Source: Byssovorax sp.
GTDB lineage: Bacteria > Myxococcota_A > Polyangia > Polyangiales > Polyangiaceae
Direction: 5' to 3'
NCBI GenBank assembly: GCA_025362495.1
Contig: JANYGI010000102.1
Coordinates: forward strand, 62,001 to 126,000
DNA: 64,000 nt
The position numbers and the translations under genes are program-made. This document shows, piece by piece, positions 32 to 29,203 of the stretch; the first letter of the stretch is position 1, and every line of letters begins with the position of its first letter. Below the pieces are notes generated by a model. It was not told the DNA's origin. It searched no databases and saw only the letters and a list, made by a program, of their open reading frames with translations.

Positions 32-1054
32 TCAACCTCCGCGCGTGTGCATCTCGAGGTGAGGGTCTTTCTTGAGGGCGGACACGGGGATCAAGACCTC
101 GCGATTCGCGGCGTGAAGGCGCTCTTCCGCGCCTCGATCCGCCCGCCCGCGCCACGCCGTCGTCAGGAGCGCCGCGAGCTCGTCGCCGCTCTTTCCGTCG
201 CGGAGCGGGCCGCGCAGATCGAGGCCCGCGCGCGCGTAGAGGCACTGGAGCCACATGCCGTCGGCGGTGATCCGCCCGCGATCACACGCCCCGCAGAAGG
301 GCTCGGTGGTCGAGGCGATGATCCCGAACGTCGTCCCGTCGGCCAGCTCCCAGCGCTCGGCCGGGGCCGATCCGCGCCCGCCGAGCGGCTTCACCTCGCC
401 GAAGCGCGCCGCGATCGCCGCGAGGATCGCCGCGCGCGAGGTGACCTTCTCCTCCGACCAGCGGGTCGCGCCGCCGACGTCCATGTACTCGATGAAGCGC
501 ACTTCCGCCTTCATTTCGCGGCCAAACGCGACGAGATCGCCGATCTCGTCGTCGTTGTCGCCGCGGAGCACGACAGTGTCGATCTTGATCCCGACGAAGC
601 CGACGCTCCGCGCGGCCTCGATCCCCGCGAGCACCTGCGGGAGGGCGTCGCGCCCCGCGAGCGCGCGGAAGCGATCGGCCTTGAGCGTGTCGAGGCTGAC
701 GGTGAGCCGCCCGAGCCCGGCGGCGTGGAGATCGGCCGCGCGATCGGCGAGGAGCACGCCGTTGGTGGTGAGCGCGAGCTCGCGGATCCCGGCGACGCCG
801 GCGAGCATCTCGACGAGCACCGGCAGCTCGGCGCGCTGCAAAGGCTCGCCCCCGGTGAGCCGGACCTTCTCGACGCCGAGGCCCGCGAACACCCGCGCCA
901 GCGCGACGATCTCCTCGAACGAGAGCAGCGAGGCCCGCGGGAGCCACACGTACTCTTTCTCGGGCATGCAGTAGGTGCAGCGGAGATTGCAGCGATCCGT
1001 GACGGAGATGCGCAGGCTCCCGAGCGGGCGGCCGAGGCGATCGACGAGCGTCAC
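32..1054 (-). CDS. moaA: GTP 3',8-cyclase MoaA (radical SAM)
   Basis: MoaA carries out the first step of molybdenum cofactor synthesis in the cytoplasm, turning GTP into 3',8-cyclo-7,8-dihydro-GTP, which MoaC then uses. The 340-residue protein has the radical-SAM CxxxCxxC cluster at C22, C26 and C29, a second iron-sulfur site at C254, C257 and C271, and the conserved C-terminal Gly-Gly that completes the active site. Length is normal for the family. The start is GTG at 1054, with GAAGAGG just upstream. It lies 21 bases downstream of the carboxymuconolactone-decarboxylase-like gene, so the two are probably co-transcribed. The other Moco genes lie at 1677 and 23.6-25.3 kb. Confidence 0.97.
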   Translation of the reverse strand: MTLVDRLGRPLGSLRISVTDRCNLRCTYCMPEKEYVWLPRASLLSFEEIVALARVFAGLGVEKVRLTGGEPLQRAELPVLVEMLAGVAGIRELALTTNGVLLADRAADLHAAGLGRLTVSLDTLKADRFRALAGRDALPQVLAGIEAARSVGFVGIKIDTVVLRGDNDDEIGDLVAFGREMKAEVRFIEYMDVGGATRWSEEKVTSRAAILAAIAARFGEVKPLGGRGSAPAERWELADGTTFGIIASTTEPFCGACDRGRITADGMWLQCLYARAGLDLRGPLRDGKSGDELAALLTTAWRGRADRGAEERLHAANREVLIPVSALKKDPHLEMHTRGG

Positions 1055-1676: not shown

Positions 1677-1928
1677 ATGGAGCACACCGTGAAGATGCTG
1701 GCCTTCGCCGGGGCGCGCGACGTGCTCGGCGCCGGCGAGATCGCCTTTCCGCTCGCCGCGCCGTGCACGGCCGCCGAGCTGCTCGCCGCCGTCTGCGCGC
1801 GGTGGCCAGCCCTCGAGCCGTACCGTCGCTCGATCCGCGTCGCCGTCAACGGCACCTACGCCGCGTGGGAAGATCCGGTGGCCTGGGGCGACGAGGTCGC
1901 GTTGATCCCGCCCGTCGCCGGCGGCTGA
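1677..1928 (+). CDS. moaD: Molybdopterin synthase small subunit MoaD
   Basis: MoaD is the ubiquitin-like sulfur carrier of molybdopterin synthase. Its C-terminal glycine is thiocarboxylated, and MoaE uses that sulfur to build the dithiolene of molybdopterin. The 83-residue product has the beta-grasp pattern, including the AVNGTYAAWEDPVAWGDEVA segment and the IPPVAGG end typical of the family. Length is normal. It stands apart from its partner moaE, which is 23 kb away, and is preceded by a hairpin-forming leader. The SatP-like gene starts 42 bases downstream, so they may share a transcript. Confidence 0.93.
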   Translation: MEHTVKMLAFAGARDVLGAGEIAFPLAAPCTAAELLAAVCARWPALEPYRRSIRVAVNGTYAAWEDPVAWGDEVALIPPVAGG

Positions 1929-18859: not shown

Positions 18860-21800
18860 TCAGACGATGGCGCCGATCGCCTTGCGCCAGGCCGCTATCC
18901 GCGTCGAAGCAGGCTTGGGCCAGCCCATCTTGGCGAAGCGCTCGAGGAGCTGCGGCGTGTGATCGCCGGTGCGGCCGGAGTCCTTGAACGTGGCGCGCGC
19001 GAGATCGAGATCGCGCGCGGCGTCGACGAAGCGGCCCTCGTGGTAGGCGAGCCAGGCCAGCGTCAGGTAGCGATGCTGCTTGGGCTCGGCCTCGACGAGG
19101 GCGAAGGCCTCGCAGGCGATGAGGTGATCGAGCGCGGCCTCGGGGCGGCCGCGTTCGAGGGCGATCTGCGCGTGCAGGAGCCGCGTCTCGACCTCGCCCC
19201 AGGGATCGGCGAGGCGCGCGAAGATGGCCCCCGCGGCGCGGGCGTGGGTCTCGGCGAGATCGACCGCGCCGCCGTCGAGGGACGTCATCGAGAGCAGGCG
19301 CTCGCTCGCGGCCTCGCCCCGCGGGTTGGCGAGATCGCGGAAGCTCTGGCGCGCGATGAGCCCCGTCGCGCGCGCGGCGTCGAGGTTGCCCTCGCGGTGA
19401 TCGGCGTGCGCGAGCGTGATGTCGCACTGGGCCAGGCCGAGGCGATACCCGATGGCGTCGAAGTCGGCGCGCGCCGTGCGGAGCAGCTCGCGAGCGAACG
19501 CGGGCGAGCCGCCCGACTGCTCGACCCAGCCCTGGAGGACGAGGCACTGCGCGCGGCCGAGCCAGTCGCCGGCCTTGAGAAAGCGCTCCGACGCGCCCGC
19601 GAGGACGCCGCGCGCGCGGCCGTGATCGCCGAGGTAGTAGTCGATCTCGCCGAGCACGACCTCGCACTGCGCGCGGCCGTGATCGCGGCCGAGCTCCTCG
19701 AACATGCCGAGCGCGCGGGCCACGAGGCGCCGCCCGTGGCCGGGCGCGGCGAGGTCCGACGCGATGTGGCCGAGCAGGCGGAGGCAGTGCGCCTCGGACT
19801 CGCGATCGCCGGTCTCCTCGAAGATGCGACGCGCCTCTTCGGCCTCGCGGCGCGAGTCTTCGAGGCGGCCGGCGTGCCGCAGCGCCTCGGCGCGCCACCG
19901 CAGGTGCGTCGCCAGCATCTCGCCCTCGAGCTTGCCGTCGAGCAGCGCGAGATCGCGCAGCGTGGCCGTGAAATCGCGGGTCTTGCCCCAGAGCAGCGCC
20001 GTCTGCCCGTGGAGCAGCGCCGCGGCCTCGGCGATGTCGCCGGCGCGGAGCAAGTTGACGACGCGGTGGCGGACGATGCGGCGGCTCGCGGCGCCGGGGT
20101 GATGCGCAAGGGCCGCGGCGGCGGCGCGGAAGATCGTCGCGGCCTCGGGCTGCAGGTAGAGCTGGCTCAGCAGGTGCTCTTGCAGGAGCGCGTGCGGCCA
20201 GCGCAGGCGATCGCCCGACACGAGGAGGATCTGCGCGCGCTTCATCGCGAAGATCGCCGCGTGCGGATCGACGCCGACGAGCTTGAGCTCGGCCTCGAGC
20301 ACGTCGTGGCGGATGTCGCCGCCGAGCGCCGCGGCCGCGAGCGCCCCGCGGCGGAGCTCGACCGGGAGCGCGAGGAGGCGTTCTTCCCAGAGCTCGCCCG
20401 TCGTGTCGGCGCGCACCTCGAGCGACGCCTTGGGCACCGAGTAGCGGCCGCCCTTCAGCTCCATGTGACCGCCGCCGGCCCACGCGTGGAGGAGCTGCAG
20501 CGCGAAGAGCGGGTTGCCCTTGCTGCGCGCCGCGGCCTCGGTGACGGCGGTGTCGTCGAGCGGCAGGGCCTCGCGCAGGAGCGCGTGGGTCTGCGCGGGG
20601 CTGAGCGGCGCGACCTCGAGGCGCTCGCCGCGCAGCTCGGCCAGGGTGCGATCGAGCAGCGCCGCCGCGGCAGGATCGGCGAGCACGGCCTCGGCGCGCG
20701 CCGTCGCGACGAAGAGGATCCCGAGCTGCGGCGCGTCGCGGTTGAGCGCCAGGAGCCCTTCGAATGTCGTCGGCGACGCGTGGTGGAGATCGTCCATCCA
20801 CAGCAGGATCGGGCGCTGCTTGCCGATGCGCTCGAGCGCGCGGCGGATGATCAGCCAGCGCAGCTCGGGGCGATCGAGGGCGAAGCGCTTGCCCGACGGG
20901 CCCATCGTCTCGCCGCCCAGCGCCGCGGGGCGGATCCACTCCGACGTCGCCGCGACCCAGGTCTTCTCTTCCTCGTCGTCGGTGGGGACTTCCCACACGT
21001 TCATCAGCACCTTCTCGACGATGTCGCGCTCGGCGCGCTCGAGGCGGTAGTGCTGGGTGATCGATCCGACGATGCCGTCGAGCGGCGCGGCGATCTTCCG
21101 GTAGCGCGCGCGGAGCGGCACCATCAGCGCGCGCTCGTGGACCTCTTCGCAGAGCCACTCGGCGAGGCGGCTCTTGCCGACGCCGGCGTCGCCGGTGAGC
21201 AGCACGAAGCGGTGGCCGCCGTTGTCGGCGACGTCGGTCGCGATCTCGAGCAGGCGGCTGCGCTCGGCGTTGCGCGCGACGAACGGGCTCGGACGCAGGC
21301 CGAGGAGGCCGGTGGTCGACACCTGCGGTACGTCGGCGCCGAACGCGTCGGCCGACGACGACGCCGCGTCGACGGGGACGATCGGCCGCGGCCCACCGAG
21401 CGGCAGCGGCGTGCTCGTGGCGCTGCCCGACGGCGCGAACTTGCGCCACGCGCGGCGCGCCTCGGCGGCGAACTCGTAGCGATGCCAGGGCCGCTTGGCC
21501 ATGAGGCGCATCACGAACTGCGCGACCTCGGGCGGCACCCCCGGCGCGAGGTTGGGCTCGGGCACCGGCGCGCTCTTGTGCTGCTGCAAGAGCTCTTCGT
21601 TGGTGCCGACGTACGGCTCGCGATCGGCGAGCATCGCGAAGAGGATGCAGCCGAGCGAGTAGATGTCGGTCGCGGGCCCGATGTGCGGCGCGGCGAAGCG
21701 GATCTGCTCCGGCGCCATCCACCCGGGCGTTCCCGCGCCCCAGCGCATCGTCGGCTCGGCGACCTGCGATCCGTCGAGGCGATGATCGACGCGATCCTGC

Positions 21801-22324
21801 ATCAGCCACGCGAGGCCGAGATCGAGCACGTGCACCGTGGGCTCGTCGCCGCCCTCGGGCTGGATGTCGACGAGCACGTTGGAAGGCTTGAGATCACCGT
21901 GGATCACGCCGCGCGCGTGCGCGTGCGCCAGCGCGCCGAGGACCTGATCGACCGTCGTCCACACGATCGGCCACGGGATCAACCCGTCGGTGTGCGCGAG
22001 GTAAATCCACTCGTGCAGCGATCGACCGGGGACGGCGTCCATCGCCAGGTACGGCGTGCCGTCGTCGAGCGCGCCGAAGTCGCGAGCGCGAACGATCGCC
22101 GGGTGCGAGAGGCCGGCGAGCGCGCGCGCCTCTTCCTGAAACCACCACGCGTCCTCGGGGCGAACCTTGGTACCGGGGCGGATCAAGAGCTTGAGGGCGA
22201 CGCGCTCGTCGACCACGAGATCGCGGCAGAGATAGACGATCCCCATCCCTCCGCGCCCGAGCTCGCGTCGCACCTGGTAGCGGCCCGCGAGGATTGTCCT
22301 CGGCTTGAACGTCTCCTCCGCCAT
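18860..22324 (-). CDS. Ser/Thr kinase with AAA ATPase and TPR repeats
   Basis: This 1154-residue regulator begins with a kinase domain (about 15-285) having GRGGMG and VALKLL. The catalytic loop is HGDLKPSN instead of HRD, and the metal site is DLG instead of DFG. The APE segment is intact (WMAPEQI), so weak or altered activity is likely but not certain. After a linker comes an AAA/STAND ATPase with Walker A GDAGVGKS and Walker B LLWMDDLHH. About 500 residues of TPR-like helical pairs follow. It is not the same as the kinase at 3748, but the plan is alike. The EF-hand membrane protein gene follows after 53 bases, probably in the same transcript. Confidence 0.9.
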   Translation of the reverse strand: MAEETFKPRTILAGRYQVRRELGRGGMGIVYLCRDLVVDERVALKLLIRPGTKVRPEDAWWFQEEARALAGLSHPAIVRARDFGALDDGTPYLAMDAVPGRSLHEWIYLAHTDGLIPWPIVWTTVDQVLGALAHAHARGVIHGDLKPSNVLVDIQPEGGDEPTVHVLDLGLAWLMQDRVDHRLDGSQVAEPTMRWGAGTPGWMAPEQIRFAAPHIGPATDIYSLGCILFAMLADREPYVGTNEELLQQHKSAPVPEPNLAPGVPPEVAQFVMRLMAKRPWHRYEFAAEARRAWRKFAPSGSATSTPLPLGGPRPIVPVDAASSSADAFGADVPQVSTTGLLGLRPSPFVARNAERSRLLEIATDVADNGGHRFVLLTGDAGVGKSRLAEWLCEEVHERALMVPLRARYRKIAAPLDGIVGSITQHYRLERAERDIVEKVLMNVWEVPTDDEEEKTWVAATSEWIRPAALGGETMGPSGKRFALDRPELRWLIIRRALERIGKQRPILLWMDDLHHASPTTFEGLLALNRDAPQLGILFVATARAEAVLADPAAAALLDRTLAELRGERLEVAPLSPAQTHALLREALPLDDTAVTEAAARSKGNPLFALQLLHAWAGGGHMELKGGRYSVPKASLEVRADTTGELWEERLLALPVELRRGALAAAALGGDIRHDVLEAELKLVGVDPHAAIFAMKRAQILLVSGDRLRWPHALLQEHLLSQLYLQPEAATIFRAAAAALAHHPGAASRRIVRHRVVNLLRAGDIAEAAALLHGQTALLWGKTRDFTATLRDLALLDGKLEGEMLATHLRWRAEALRHAGRLEDSRREAEEARRIFEETGDRESEAHCLRLLGHIASDLAAPGHGRRLVARALGMFEELGRDHGRAQCEVVLGEIDYYLGDHGRARGVLAGASERFLKAGDWLGRAQCLVLQGWVEQSGGSPAFARELLRTARADFDAIGYRLGLAQCDITLAHADHREGNLDAARATGLIARQSFRDLANPRGEAASERLLSMTSLDGGAVDLAETHARAAGAIFARLADPWGEVETRLLHAQIALERGRPEAALDHLIACEAFALVEAEPKQHRYLTLAWLAYHEGRFVDAARDLDLARATFKDSGRTGDHTPQLLERFAKMGWPKPASTRIAAWRKAIGAIV

Positions 22325-23646: not shown

Positions 23647-24819
23647 ATGGCCGGAAGCGCGATCGAGTCTGCCGTCTACGCCTTCGAGGGTCTCCTGCCG
23701 GAGATCGAGTCGCCGCCGATCGCCGCGCGCCGCGCGCTCGATCACGCGGGCCTGCGGATCTCGATCGAAGCGTGGCGATCGCTCTCGCTCGACGAGCGAT
23801 CGCGCCTCACGGTCGCCGGCGCGTCCGAGCGCGTCGACACCGACGTCGTGAGCGGGATCGCGCGCCTCGCGAGCCCGCCGCCGCAGCGCGTGCCGACCGG
23901 CGCCGATCCCGATCCGGGGACGCCGCCCGAGGCCCTCGCGCGCGCGCTCGAGCCGACGCGATCGATCGAGCCGCGGCGCTGGGGTCGCCTCCGCGCGCTC
24001 GATCGCTACGCGCTCGTGCACACCTACCGCCGCGCCATGGCGCGGAGCTCGTTCCTGATCCTCGGCGAGGCGTACGACTCGGTCATGGCCACGGTCCCCG
24101 TCGGCGCGGGCGACGTCGAGCGGCGGCTGGAGCGGGCGCCTGTCGCGCGCGGCCTGTCGTCGCCGGCGCCGGCGTCCGGCGGCTACCAGGCGCCGGGCGC
24201 GTACTCCAGCTTCGACGATCCGCCGCCGCGCGAGCGCCACGAGGTCGTCATGAAGGACCGCGGCGAGGCGCGCACGCCGGCGCCGCCCTCGGTGCGCTCC
24301 GCACCCGCGCGCGCGCCCTCGCCCGCTCCTTCGGTCTCCACGCACCTCAACGACGCCGGCGCGGTCCACATGGTCGCCGTCGGCGAGAAGGCGGCCACCG
24401 CGCGGCGCGCCGTGGCCTCGGGGATCGTGAAGATGCGCGCGGACACGGCGGCGCGGCTCCTCCATCGCGACACGCCCAAGGGCGAGGTCCTCGCGACGGC
24501 GCGCGTCGCCGGGATCATGGCCGCGAAGCGCACGCCCGATCTCATCCCGCTCTGCCACGGCGTCGCGCTCACCGGCGTGACGATCGACCTCGAGATCGAC
24601 GCCCCCGGCGCGCGGGTGATCGTGACGGCGACGGCCGACGCCCACGATCGCACCGGCGTCGAAATGGAAGCTCTCGTCGCCGTGTCGGTCGCGTGCCTGA
24701 CCATCTACGACATGCTCAAGGGGATCGATCGCGAGCTGGTGATCGGCGAGGTGAAGCTCCTCGAGAAGAGCGGCGGGCGCACCGGCCACTACGTGCGCGC
24801 GGGCGAGGGGCGAGCGTGA
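23647..24819 (+). CDS. moaC: NRAP-domain / MoaC fusion (cyclic pyranopterin monophosphate synthase)
   Basis: The C-terminal part (about 232-385) is MoaC, which turns MoaA's product into cyclic pyranopterin monophosphate. All six residues matching E. coli K51, H77, E112, E114, D128 and K131 are present as K278, H304, E339, E341, D355 and K358, so it should be active. The first about 150 residues resemble the nitrate reductase associated protein family (YAFEGLLPEIESPPIAARRA, then RYALVHTYRR), normally a separate protein near nitrate reductase genes. A Pro/Ala-rich linker joins the two. ATG 23647 begins the recognisable N-domain. The stop overlaps the moaE start, so coupling is likely. Confidence 0.88.
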   Translation: MAGSAIESAVYAFEGLLPEIESPPIAARRALDHAGLRISIEAWRSLSLDERSRLTVAGASERVDTDVVSGIARLASPPPQRVPTGADPDPGTPPEALARALEPTRSIEPRRWGRLRALDRYALVHTYRRAMARSSFLILGEAYDSVMATVPVGAGDVERRLERAPVARGLSSPAPASGGYQAPGAYSSFDDPPPRERHEVVMKDRGEARTPAPPSVRSAPARAPSPAPSVSTHLNDAGAVHMVAVGEKAATARRAVASGIVKMRADTAARLLHRDTPKGEVLATARVAGIMAAKRTPDLIPLCHGVALTGVTIDLEIDAPGARVIVTATADAHDRTGVEMEALVAVSVACLTIYDMLKGIDRELVIGEVKLLEKSGGRTGHYVRAGEGRA

Positions 24820-25316
24820 GCGCCGGCGTGACCACGAAGCGCATCCGCACCGAGCCGCTCTCGCTCGACGAGGTCATCGCCGAGGTGAGCCACCCGGGCG
24901 CGGGCGGCGTCGCCACGTTCCTCGGCGTCGTGCGCGATTTCAACGACGGCCGCGCCGTCACGCTGCTCGAGTACGAGGCCTACGGCGCGATGGCCGAGGC
25001 CGAGATCGCGCGCATCCACGCCGAGCTCGCGGCCGAGATGCCAGGCGTGCGCGTGGCGGCCACCCACCGCGTCGGCACGCTCCACATCGGCGACGCCGCG
25101 GTGGTCTGCGCCGCGAGCGCGCCGCACCGCGCCGAGGCCTTCCAGGCGTGCCGGGTGCTCATCGATCGCATCAAGGCCCGCCTGCCGATCTGGAAGCGCG
25201 AGCACGGCCCCGACGGCCCCTACTGGGTCGGCTGGGAAGACGCGCGCTGCGGCGACGAGCACGCCGCGGGCGACCACGCGGGCCACGCGCACGGCCACCG
25301 CCACGATCACGAATGA
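24816..25316 (+). CDS. moaE: Molybdopterin synthase large subunit MoaE with His-rich tail
   Basis: MoaE inserts the dithiolene sulfurs into precursor Z, using the thiocarboxylate carried by MoaD. The sequence has GVVRDFNDGRAVTLLEYEAY, HRVGTLHIGD and IKARLPIWKRE, with K120 and K127 spaced as the catalytic lysines of the E. coli enzyme (K119, K126). The last about 20 residues are very rich in His, Asp, Ala and Gly, an unusual addition that could bind metal. The start is GTG 24816, which shares GTGA with the stop of moaC, and GAGGGG lies just before it. Confidence 0.95.
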   Translation: MSAGVTTKRIRTEPLSLDEVIAEVSHPGAGGVATFLGVVRDFNDGRAVTLLEYEAYGAMAEAEIARIHAELAAEMPGVRVAATHRVGTLHIGDAAVVCAASAPHRAEAFQACRVLIDRIKARLPIWKREHGPDGPYWVGWEDARCGDEHAAGDHAGHAHGHRHDHE

Positions 25317-28075: not shown

Positions 28076-29203
28076 TCAGCCCCGCGCCGCGGCGAGCAAC
28101 TGAGCCGCGGCGCTCTCGATCTCCTCTTCCGTCGTCAGCCGCCCCAGCGTCAACCGGATCGCCCCGAGCGCGTCTTTCGCGGCGATCCCCATCGCCGTGA
28201 GGGCGCGCGAGGGCGTCATCTCTCCGGCGTGACAGGCACTCCCGGTCGTGAACGCGATCCCGGGGACACGCGCCAGCAACGCATCTCCGCGCAGGCCGGG
28301 GAAGCGGCCATTCACCGTGTTGGGCAGCCGCGCCGCGCCCGCGCCGTGCACGACGAACCCGCCGGTGGCCAGCCGCTGCTCCAGCCGATCACGGAGGCTG
28401 CGTTGCCGCGCGCCCTCGTCGGCGACGTCCTCGCGCGCCATCGCGCAGGCTTCGCCGAGCGCGGCTATCCCGGCGACGTTCTCGGTGCCAGGCCGGATCC
28501 CGCGCTCGTGCCCCGCGCCGAGCAACAGCGGCCCGAGCGCGAGCCCACGCCTCGCAAACAGGGCTCCAACGCCCTTGGGCGCATAGAGCTTGTGCCCCGC
28601 GACGCTCAGCAGATCCACGCCGAGCGCGCGCACGTCGACGGCGATCTTGCCGACGGCCTGCGCGGCGTCGGCGTGGACGATCGCCCCGTGCTCCTTCGCG
28701 ATCCGCGCCACCTCGGCGATCGGCTGGATAACGCCGGTCTCGTTCTGCGCGAGGATCACGCTCAGGATCGTCGGCCCGTCGCTCGCCGCGCGCCACAGGG
28801 CCCGCTTCACGCCCTCGAGATCGATCAGGCCGTCGCGATCGACGTCGACCGTGATCACCGTCGCTCCGTGGCGGCCGAGCAACGCGGCGGGCTCGATCGT
28901 CGCGGGGTGCTCCACGGCGGACGTGATGATTCGCCGCGGCGACGACGCGGGCGCCCAGCCGCGCAGAGCCAGGTTGTTCGACTCGGTGCCGCTGCCGGTG
29001 AAGATGATCTCGTCGGCATCGCAGCCCAGGAGCGCGGCGACCTCGGTGCGCGCGGTGTCGACGAAGGCCCTCGCGCGCCGCCCGTGTACATGATCCGCGC
29101 TCGGGTTGCCGAACCCTTCGGCGAGGGCCCGCATCATCGCGTCGCGGACGCGCGGCAGGACGGGCGTGGACGCGTTGCAGTCGAGATAAACAGGATCGCT
29201 CAC
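28076..29203 (-). CDS. Cysteine desulfurase, NifS/IscS family
   Basis: This PLP-dependent enzyme takes sulfur from cysteine to supply iron-sulfur clusters, thiolated tRNA or cofactors. The 375-residue sequence shows YLDCNASTPVLP, the PLP Schiff-base lysine K205 in AGHKLYAPKG, RPGTENVAGI and the catalytic persulfide cysteine C324 in TTGSACHAGEMTPS. No scaffold genes such as iscU lie near, so it is probably a stand-alone desulfurase. It could supply sulfur to MoaD through a MoeB-like enzyme not seen here; that is inference. It is divergent from the PHP-domain gene, 109 bases away. Confidence 0.95.
   Translation of the reverse strand: MSDPVYLDCNASTPVLPRVRDAMMRALAEGFGNPSADHVHGRRARAFVDTARTEVAALLGCDADEIIFTGSGTESNNLALRGWAPASSPRRIITSAVEHPATIEPAALLGRHGATVITVDVDRDGLIDLEGVKRALWRAASDGPTILSVILAQNETGVIQPIAEVARIAKEHGAIVHADAAQAVGKIAVDVRALGVDLLSVAGHKLYAPKGVGALFARRGLALGPLLLGAGHERGIRPGTENVAGIAALGEACAMAREDVADEGARQRSLRDRLEQRLATGGFVVHGAGAARLPNTVNGRFPGLRGDALLARVPGIAFTTGSACHAGEMTPSRALTAMGIAAKDALGAIRLTLGRLTTEEEIESAAAQLLAAARG

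Follow-up and report, generated by a model that had tools for sequence, protein, structure and literature searches.

MoaC proteins with an N-terminal NRAP domain in the order Polyangiales

A gene in the stretch of Byssovorax sp. DNA analysed here (64,000 nucleotides, hereafter the window) encodes an NRAP domain joined to a complete MoaC. A single protein with NRAP and a full-scoring MoaC is found in 32 of the 144 genomes of the order Polyangiales that we sampled, across 16 genera and two family groups. NRAP-MoaC combines two known families (NRAP/NarM and MoaC). The window gene is predicted to encode the cell's own MoaC, an active cyclic pyranopterin monophosphate synthase. Because related domains are also fused to MoaE and MobA, NRAP probably has a role in the assembly of molybdenum enzymes at large, one not confined to nitrate reductase. 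The gene and its parts are as follows:

23647..24819, + strand: NRAP-MoaC fusion gene, 390 aa plus stop, a single unbroken frame
23710..24042, + strand: NRAP / Nitr_red_assoc domain (PF09655), residues 22-132, all-helical in the structure model with core pLDDT about 95
24097..24336, + strand: Pro/Ala-rich linker, residues 151-230, longer by far than in most relatives
24370..24777, + strand: MoaC domain (PF01967), residues 242-377, carrying K278, H304, E339, E341, D355 and K358

The original prediction had placed a fusion at 23647-24819, and the open reading frame on the + strand proved to be uninterrupted. Codon statistics support this frame in all three segments (3/3), with the weakest support in the linker. 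Whole-genome searches of the source assembly (240 contigs, 96.6% complete) returned one PF09655 match (33.1 bits) and one MoaC match, both in the fusion gene. Draft assemblies or MAGs make up most of the sampled genomes, which favours an assembly or frame artefact; against this, one open frame spans both domains, and the identical fusion recurs across the 32 genomes and 16 genera, including cultured strains (Polyangium fumosum DSM 14668 and three other Polyangium strains). Since the fusion is conserved across genomes, we reject the artefact explanation, which we regard as practically excluded.

The six catalytic residues of MoaC are, in E. coli numbering, K51, H77, E112, E114, D128 and K131. 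In a gapless alignment to E. coli MoaC (4pyd), window residues K278, H304, E339, E341, D355 and K358 fall on positions 51, 77, 112, 114, 128 and 131, in agreement with the complete MoaC read from the sequence at the outset. All six are kept in each of the 29 NRAP-MoaC proteins (of 32) that were aligned. The window protein scores 169.9 bits with PF01967 (cut-off 27, residues 242-377) and 179.1 bits with TIGR00581 (cut-off 141.5), which makes it a member of the MoaC family, and a profile built from relatives gives 216 bits for the MoaC domain and 128 bits for the NRAP domain. Like the known MoaC proteins (TIGR00581, PF01967; structures 4pyd, 1ekr, 4fdf), it has the full domain and the six catalytic residues, and it is the only MoaC found in its genome; unlike them, it has an additional domain of some 150 aa at its N-terminus, followed by an 80-residue linker. 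It resembles the bifunctional MoaC/MoaB (NF002947), MoaC/MOSC (NF011069) and MoaC/MobA (NF011070) proteins in joining MoaC to a Moco-related domain, but the fusion partner is another domain, and its scores with these models lie far below their cut-offs (169.1 vs 285, 160 vs 457 and 127.9 vs 606). MoaX, the fused MoaD-MoaE of Mycobacterium tuberculosis, is likewise a Moco-synthesis fusion protein, and it needs cleavage to work (PMC4326299).

The N-terminal part matches PF09655 over residues 22-132 with 31.1 bits (E 3.5e-7), above the gathering cut-off of 25, so the NRAP identification also holds. With the NCBIfam model TIGR02664, named 'nitrate reductase maturation protein NarM', it reaches 35 bits, well short of the 110 set as cut-off, and falls outside NarM proper. 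Homology to NarM (TIGR02664, PF09655) is recognisable over most of the profile (window residues 18-131), and the window NRAP is, like NarM, a small helical domain; it differs in its sub-threshold score, its separate clade, its fusion to MoaC and the lack of an adjoining nitrate reductase gene. The description of NRAP as a helper of unknown role did not wholly hold, as the family has a named role in NCBIfam. To our knowledge, the mechanism by which NarM-type proteins help molybdoenzymes mature is not settled. A literature search with the NRAP/NarM family accessions and names found nothing, and the consulted passages of a published survey of molybdoprotein domain fusions make no mention of NRAP (PMC6147048). 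An archaeal membrane anchor called 'NarM' (PMC4683180) appears to be a different protein that shares only the name.

We modelled the protein with AlphaFold2, using relatives as the alignment. The NRAP domain is helical (mean pLDDT 88) and the MoaC part is modelled confidently; linker residues 163-226 are predicted to be disordered (pLDDT under 50), and the model does not fix the mutual placement of NRAP and MoaC (pTM 0.47). Fold searches with the NRAP model yielded nothing confident in either Foldseek (E of 2.8 or more) or VIA (Z up to 3.4, mostly to C-terminal helices), and the NRAP profile matched no PDB sequence. This does not prove that the modelled fold is new. Within the linker, an internal ATG at 24250 (M202, + strand) has a GAGG five bases upstream (24241-24252) and could yield MoaC without NRAP; the site is not conserved, because the linker is missing in most relatives.

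In a phylum-wide sample of 377 genomes, PF09655 matches were confined to the order Polyangiales, where the domain is present in 65 of the 144 genomes with exactly one detectable copy each, fused or separate. NRAP had been thought of as normally a separate protein; within the order, MoaC-fused NRAP is the commoner form. We sorted the proteins into four classes. Class A consists of standalone NarM-like proteins with high PF09655 scores, which often adjoin mobA-like genes and in some loci a NapA-like gene. The NRAP-MoaC fusions form class B, and among its 27 mapped loci moaE is directly next in 22 and fused in 3. In class C the partner of NRAP is a MoaC-like domain from which some or most of the catalytic residues are gone. 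Class D holds the divergent NRAPs, which are found in MobA-NRAP fusions, are encoded convergently with mobA or, in one group, adjoin cbb3-oxidase-like genes. In four loci of this last kind (L047, L050, L051, L085), all from one family group, the NRAP gene adjoins cbb3 oxidase-like and CcoG-like genes and then response regulators. At L081:3518-4239 - and L089:8335-9030 -, NRAP adjoins or is fused to a MazG-like domain, as judged from sequence.

Pfam confirmed fusions of NRAP to MoaE (L164:3830-4897 +) and to MobA in both orders: NRAP-MobA, with MobA C-terminal (L042:7469-8491 +, a class A member), and MobA-NRAP, with MobA N-terminal (L088:7613-8563 +). The two MobA fusions sit in separate NRAP clades. 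One genome, MAG-87, carries both NRAP-MoaC (L151) and NRAP-MoaE (L164), and triple NRAP-MoaC-MoaE fusions occur at L061, L071 and L072, with Pfam confirmation for L061. A protein encoded beside the NRAP-MobA gene (P0003) was considered as a nitrate reductase, for which NCBIfam gives no support. In the NRAP tree the fused domains cluster with classes B and C, most of class D and the MoaE fusion (support 95/89), while NarM-like and alphaproteobacterial NRAPs fall outside; finer branches are weakly supported because the alignment has few columns. The MoaC label requires six changes, with a forced minimum of one change in the NRAP tree and three in the MoaC tree. These trees fit more than one number of independent fusion events, and some of the changes may be losses. 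One possible loss is G133, where a separate NarM accompanies an unfused MoaC that lies, in the MoaC tree, with those nearest the window MoaC.

The nearest neighbours of the window fusion gene are a kinase, a Pfam-less protein, moaE and a second Pfam-less protein. Three further Moco genes lie in the window:

24816..25316, + strand: moaE, MPT synthase large subunit (PF02391), with a GTG start that overlaps the fusion stop (GTGA)
35..1054, - strand: moaA (Radical_SAM plus Mob_synth_C), about 22 kb from the fusion gene
1677..1925, + strand: ThiS-family small protein, probable moaD, about 22 kb from the fusion gene

The overlap between the fusion gene and moaE is 4 bp, and the physical link to Moco synthesis that had been proposed is present, NRAP being joined to MoaC in a single chain. 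No nitrate reductase gene adjoins the fusion, a neighbourhood that does not fit NarM. The kinase (18863-22324, - strand, upstream of moaC) is a Ser/Thr kinase with AAA and TPR domains, and genes for similar kinases occur close to moa genes at 11 of the loci retrieved. A class-V aminotransferase (28079-29203, - strand), 3 kb from moaE, is possibly a cysteine desulfurase; that it is linked to MoaD sulfuration is only a guess. An Rfam scan of the window found no family, hence no match to a Moco riboswitch.

We considered whether NRAP could be a nitrate-reductase-specific maturation factor carried on MoaC, through which the supply of Moco would be tied to nitrate assimilation. In favour of this, the family bears the name NarM in NCBIfam, the source genome has a NasC-like protein (788 bits, under its cut-off of 1100), and NapA, a NasC-like protein or NarG was recognised in 19 of the 32 NRAP-MoaC genomes, by our criteria of at least 65% identity to P0004 for NapA, at least 650 bits for NasC-like proteins, or NarG (G084 was scored NarG-positive on hit size and position alone). 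Across the order, nitrate reductase is found in 32/60 genomes with an NRAP of classes A, B or D vs 14/84 others (odds ratio 5.7, p = 4.5e-6), a statistic that ignores kinship and for which NarG was sought in part of the genomes. However, NRAP is kept in nine NRAP-MoaC genomes in which we recognised no nitrate reductase (G022, G072, G074, G080, G086, G092, G104, G114, G136), having classified part of their oxidoreductases and judged NarG by frame length in the PF00384 table. Four more are ambiguous, with proteins not classable as nitrate reductase (G088, G096, G107, G123; G088 was judged by its likeness to G107). None of the 27 mapped fusion loci has a neighbouring gene tagged as NapA-like, and the window NRAP scores far below the NarM cut-off. 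On Acetobacteraceae plasmids, NRAP directly precedes an FdhF/YdeP-family oxidoreductase in 4/4 regions read (H1, H2, H5, H6). The Komagataeibacter xylinus NRAP region holds moaA, moaD, moaE, fdhD and a MobA-like gene, and an Agrobacterium region has no oxidoreductase or Moco-gene neighbours of the Acetobacteraceae kind. We therefore find the nitrate-specific explanation unlikely. The NRAP-MoaC observation of the original prediction stands and its interpretation is supported in part; a role of NRAP specific to nitrate reductase is unsupported, given the nine genomes and the Acetobacteraceae gene order.

A bis-MGD-type oxidoreductase other than NuoG is present in the source genome and in 16/16 further NRAP-MoaC genomes checked. 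Many genomes with bis-MGD enzymes have no NRAP, and thus NRAP is not generally required.

The explanation we favour, with belief about evenly divided for and against, is that the fusion is the cell's MoaC, flexibly tethered at its N-terminus to an adaptor domain from the NRAP/NarM superfamily, which would link Moco-synthesis enzymes to one another or to apo-molybdoenzymes. If MoaC assembles into the hexamer typical of it, as many as six NRAP domains would be displayed on the outside. The partner bound by NRAP would be one shared among Moco-dependent systems, with another enzyme of Moco synthesis or an apo bis-MGD oxidoreductase the likeliest candidates, so that pterin intermediates would be passed on locally; standalone NarM would do the equivalent job in trans for nitrate reductase. 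In favour of an adaptor stand the fusions of NRAP to MoaE, to MoaC-MoaE and to MobA in both orders, the moaE gene that is next to or part of the fusion in 25 of the 27 mapped loci, the mobA-like and NapA-like neighbours of standalone NRAPs, the Acetobacteraceae gene order, the bis-MGD oxidoreductases of the NRAP-MoaC genomes, the single NRAP copy per genome and the separate NarM of G133. Against it count the genomes that have bis-MGD enzymes and no NRAP, and the want of a confident fold match for the NRAP model. The MoaC step precedes the involvement of any target enzyme, and tethering MoaC to an apo-enzyme therefore meets no obvious need. In addition, in most pairs the evolution of NRAP outpaces that of MoaC: dN/dS-type ratios (Nei-Gojobori, rough because of high GC content and saturated synonymous sites) are lower for MoaC than for NRAP in all pairs but one. 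Class-B NRAP ratios are below 0.6 in 8/8 comparisons and 0.29 in a further, Polyangium pair. Three of the eight, within a genus where no nitrate reductase was recognised, have values of 0.12-0.37, which show that NRAP stays under purifying selection there.

Instead of serving as a protein adaptor, NRAP might act within the pathway on a pterin or nucleotide intermediate, such that cPMP or its precursor is bound or shielded by the domain itself. The residues invariant among NRAPs (P24, R28, R29, D32, W43, R51 and R120 in window numbering) include four arginines and a tryptophan (R28, R29, R51, R120, W43) that fit a small-molecule site, and NRAP is fused to enzymes of several steps (MoaC, MoaE, MobA). 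Those three enzymes have differing substrates, however, no ligand-binding fold was recognised in the NRAP model, and oxidoreductase genes adjoin standalone NRAPs; we doubt this explanation and would assign it a small chance. Smaller still is the chance that NRAP mainly stabilises or regulates the MoaC oligomer with no outside partner. In its favour, the fusion is conserved, and the pairing persists where MoaC catalytic residues are lost. Against it, NRAP also exists as a separate protein and in fusions with MoaE and MobA, MoaC comes without NRAP in other genomes of the order, and in the window protein a fixed contact between MoaC and NRAP is hard to reconcile with so long a disordered linker.

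The class C proteins (n=13; L084, L086, L090, L091, L087 and L122-L129) form one group in both the NRAP and MoaC trees. Catalytic loss was seen in 5/5 that were aligned, and the eight further cases are low-scoring. In G137 (93% complete), which carries two class-C genes, we detected no MoaA, MoaE, canonical MoaC or PF20256 protein; its PF00384 matches are limited to a NuoG-like fragment. MoaA and MoaE were not found in G032, which has one strong PF00384 protein. G069, G128 and G132 have MoaA and MoaE with only weak or partial PF00384 matches, and PF20256 proteins are present in G128 and G132. Genome incompleteness could account for part of these missing Moco genes. Class-C genes adjoin unrelated genes, such as aroA-like and chorismate-mutase-like genes in G014/G102 (named by eye from sequence starts). 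Ratios are 0.09 and 0.06 for the pair G032/G069 and 0.44 and 0.26 for G014/G102, but about 0.9-1.0 for two copies within G022, and constraint on class C is therefore shown for some members only. That NRAP is a general Moco-assembly adaptor and not a nitrate reductase factor, with the class-C lineage now in a Moco-independent function, is a combined proposal that we consider possible but somewhat doubtful.

Class C may be a pseudoenzyme family. For NarM-type proteins more widely, the fusions of NRAP to several defined steps of Moco synthesis would offer concrete predictions of their partners.
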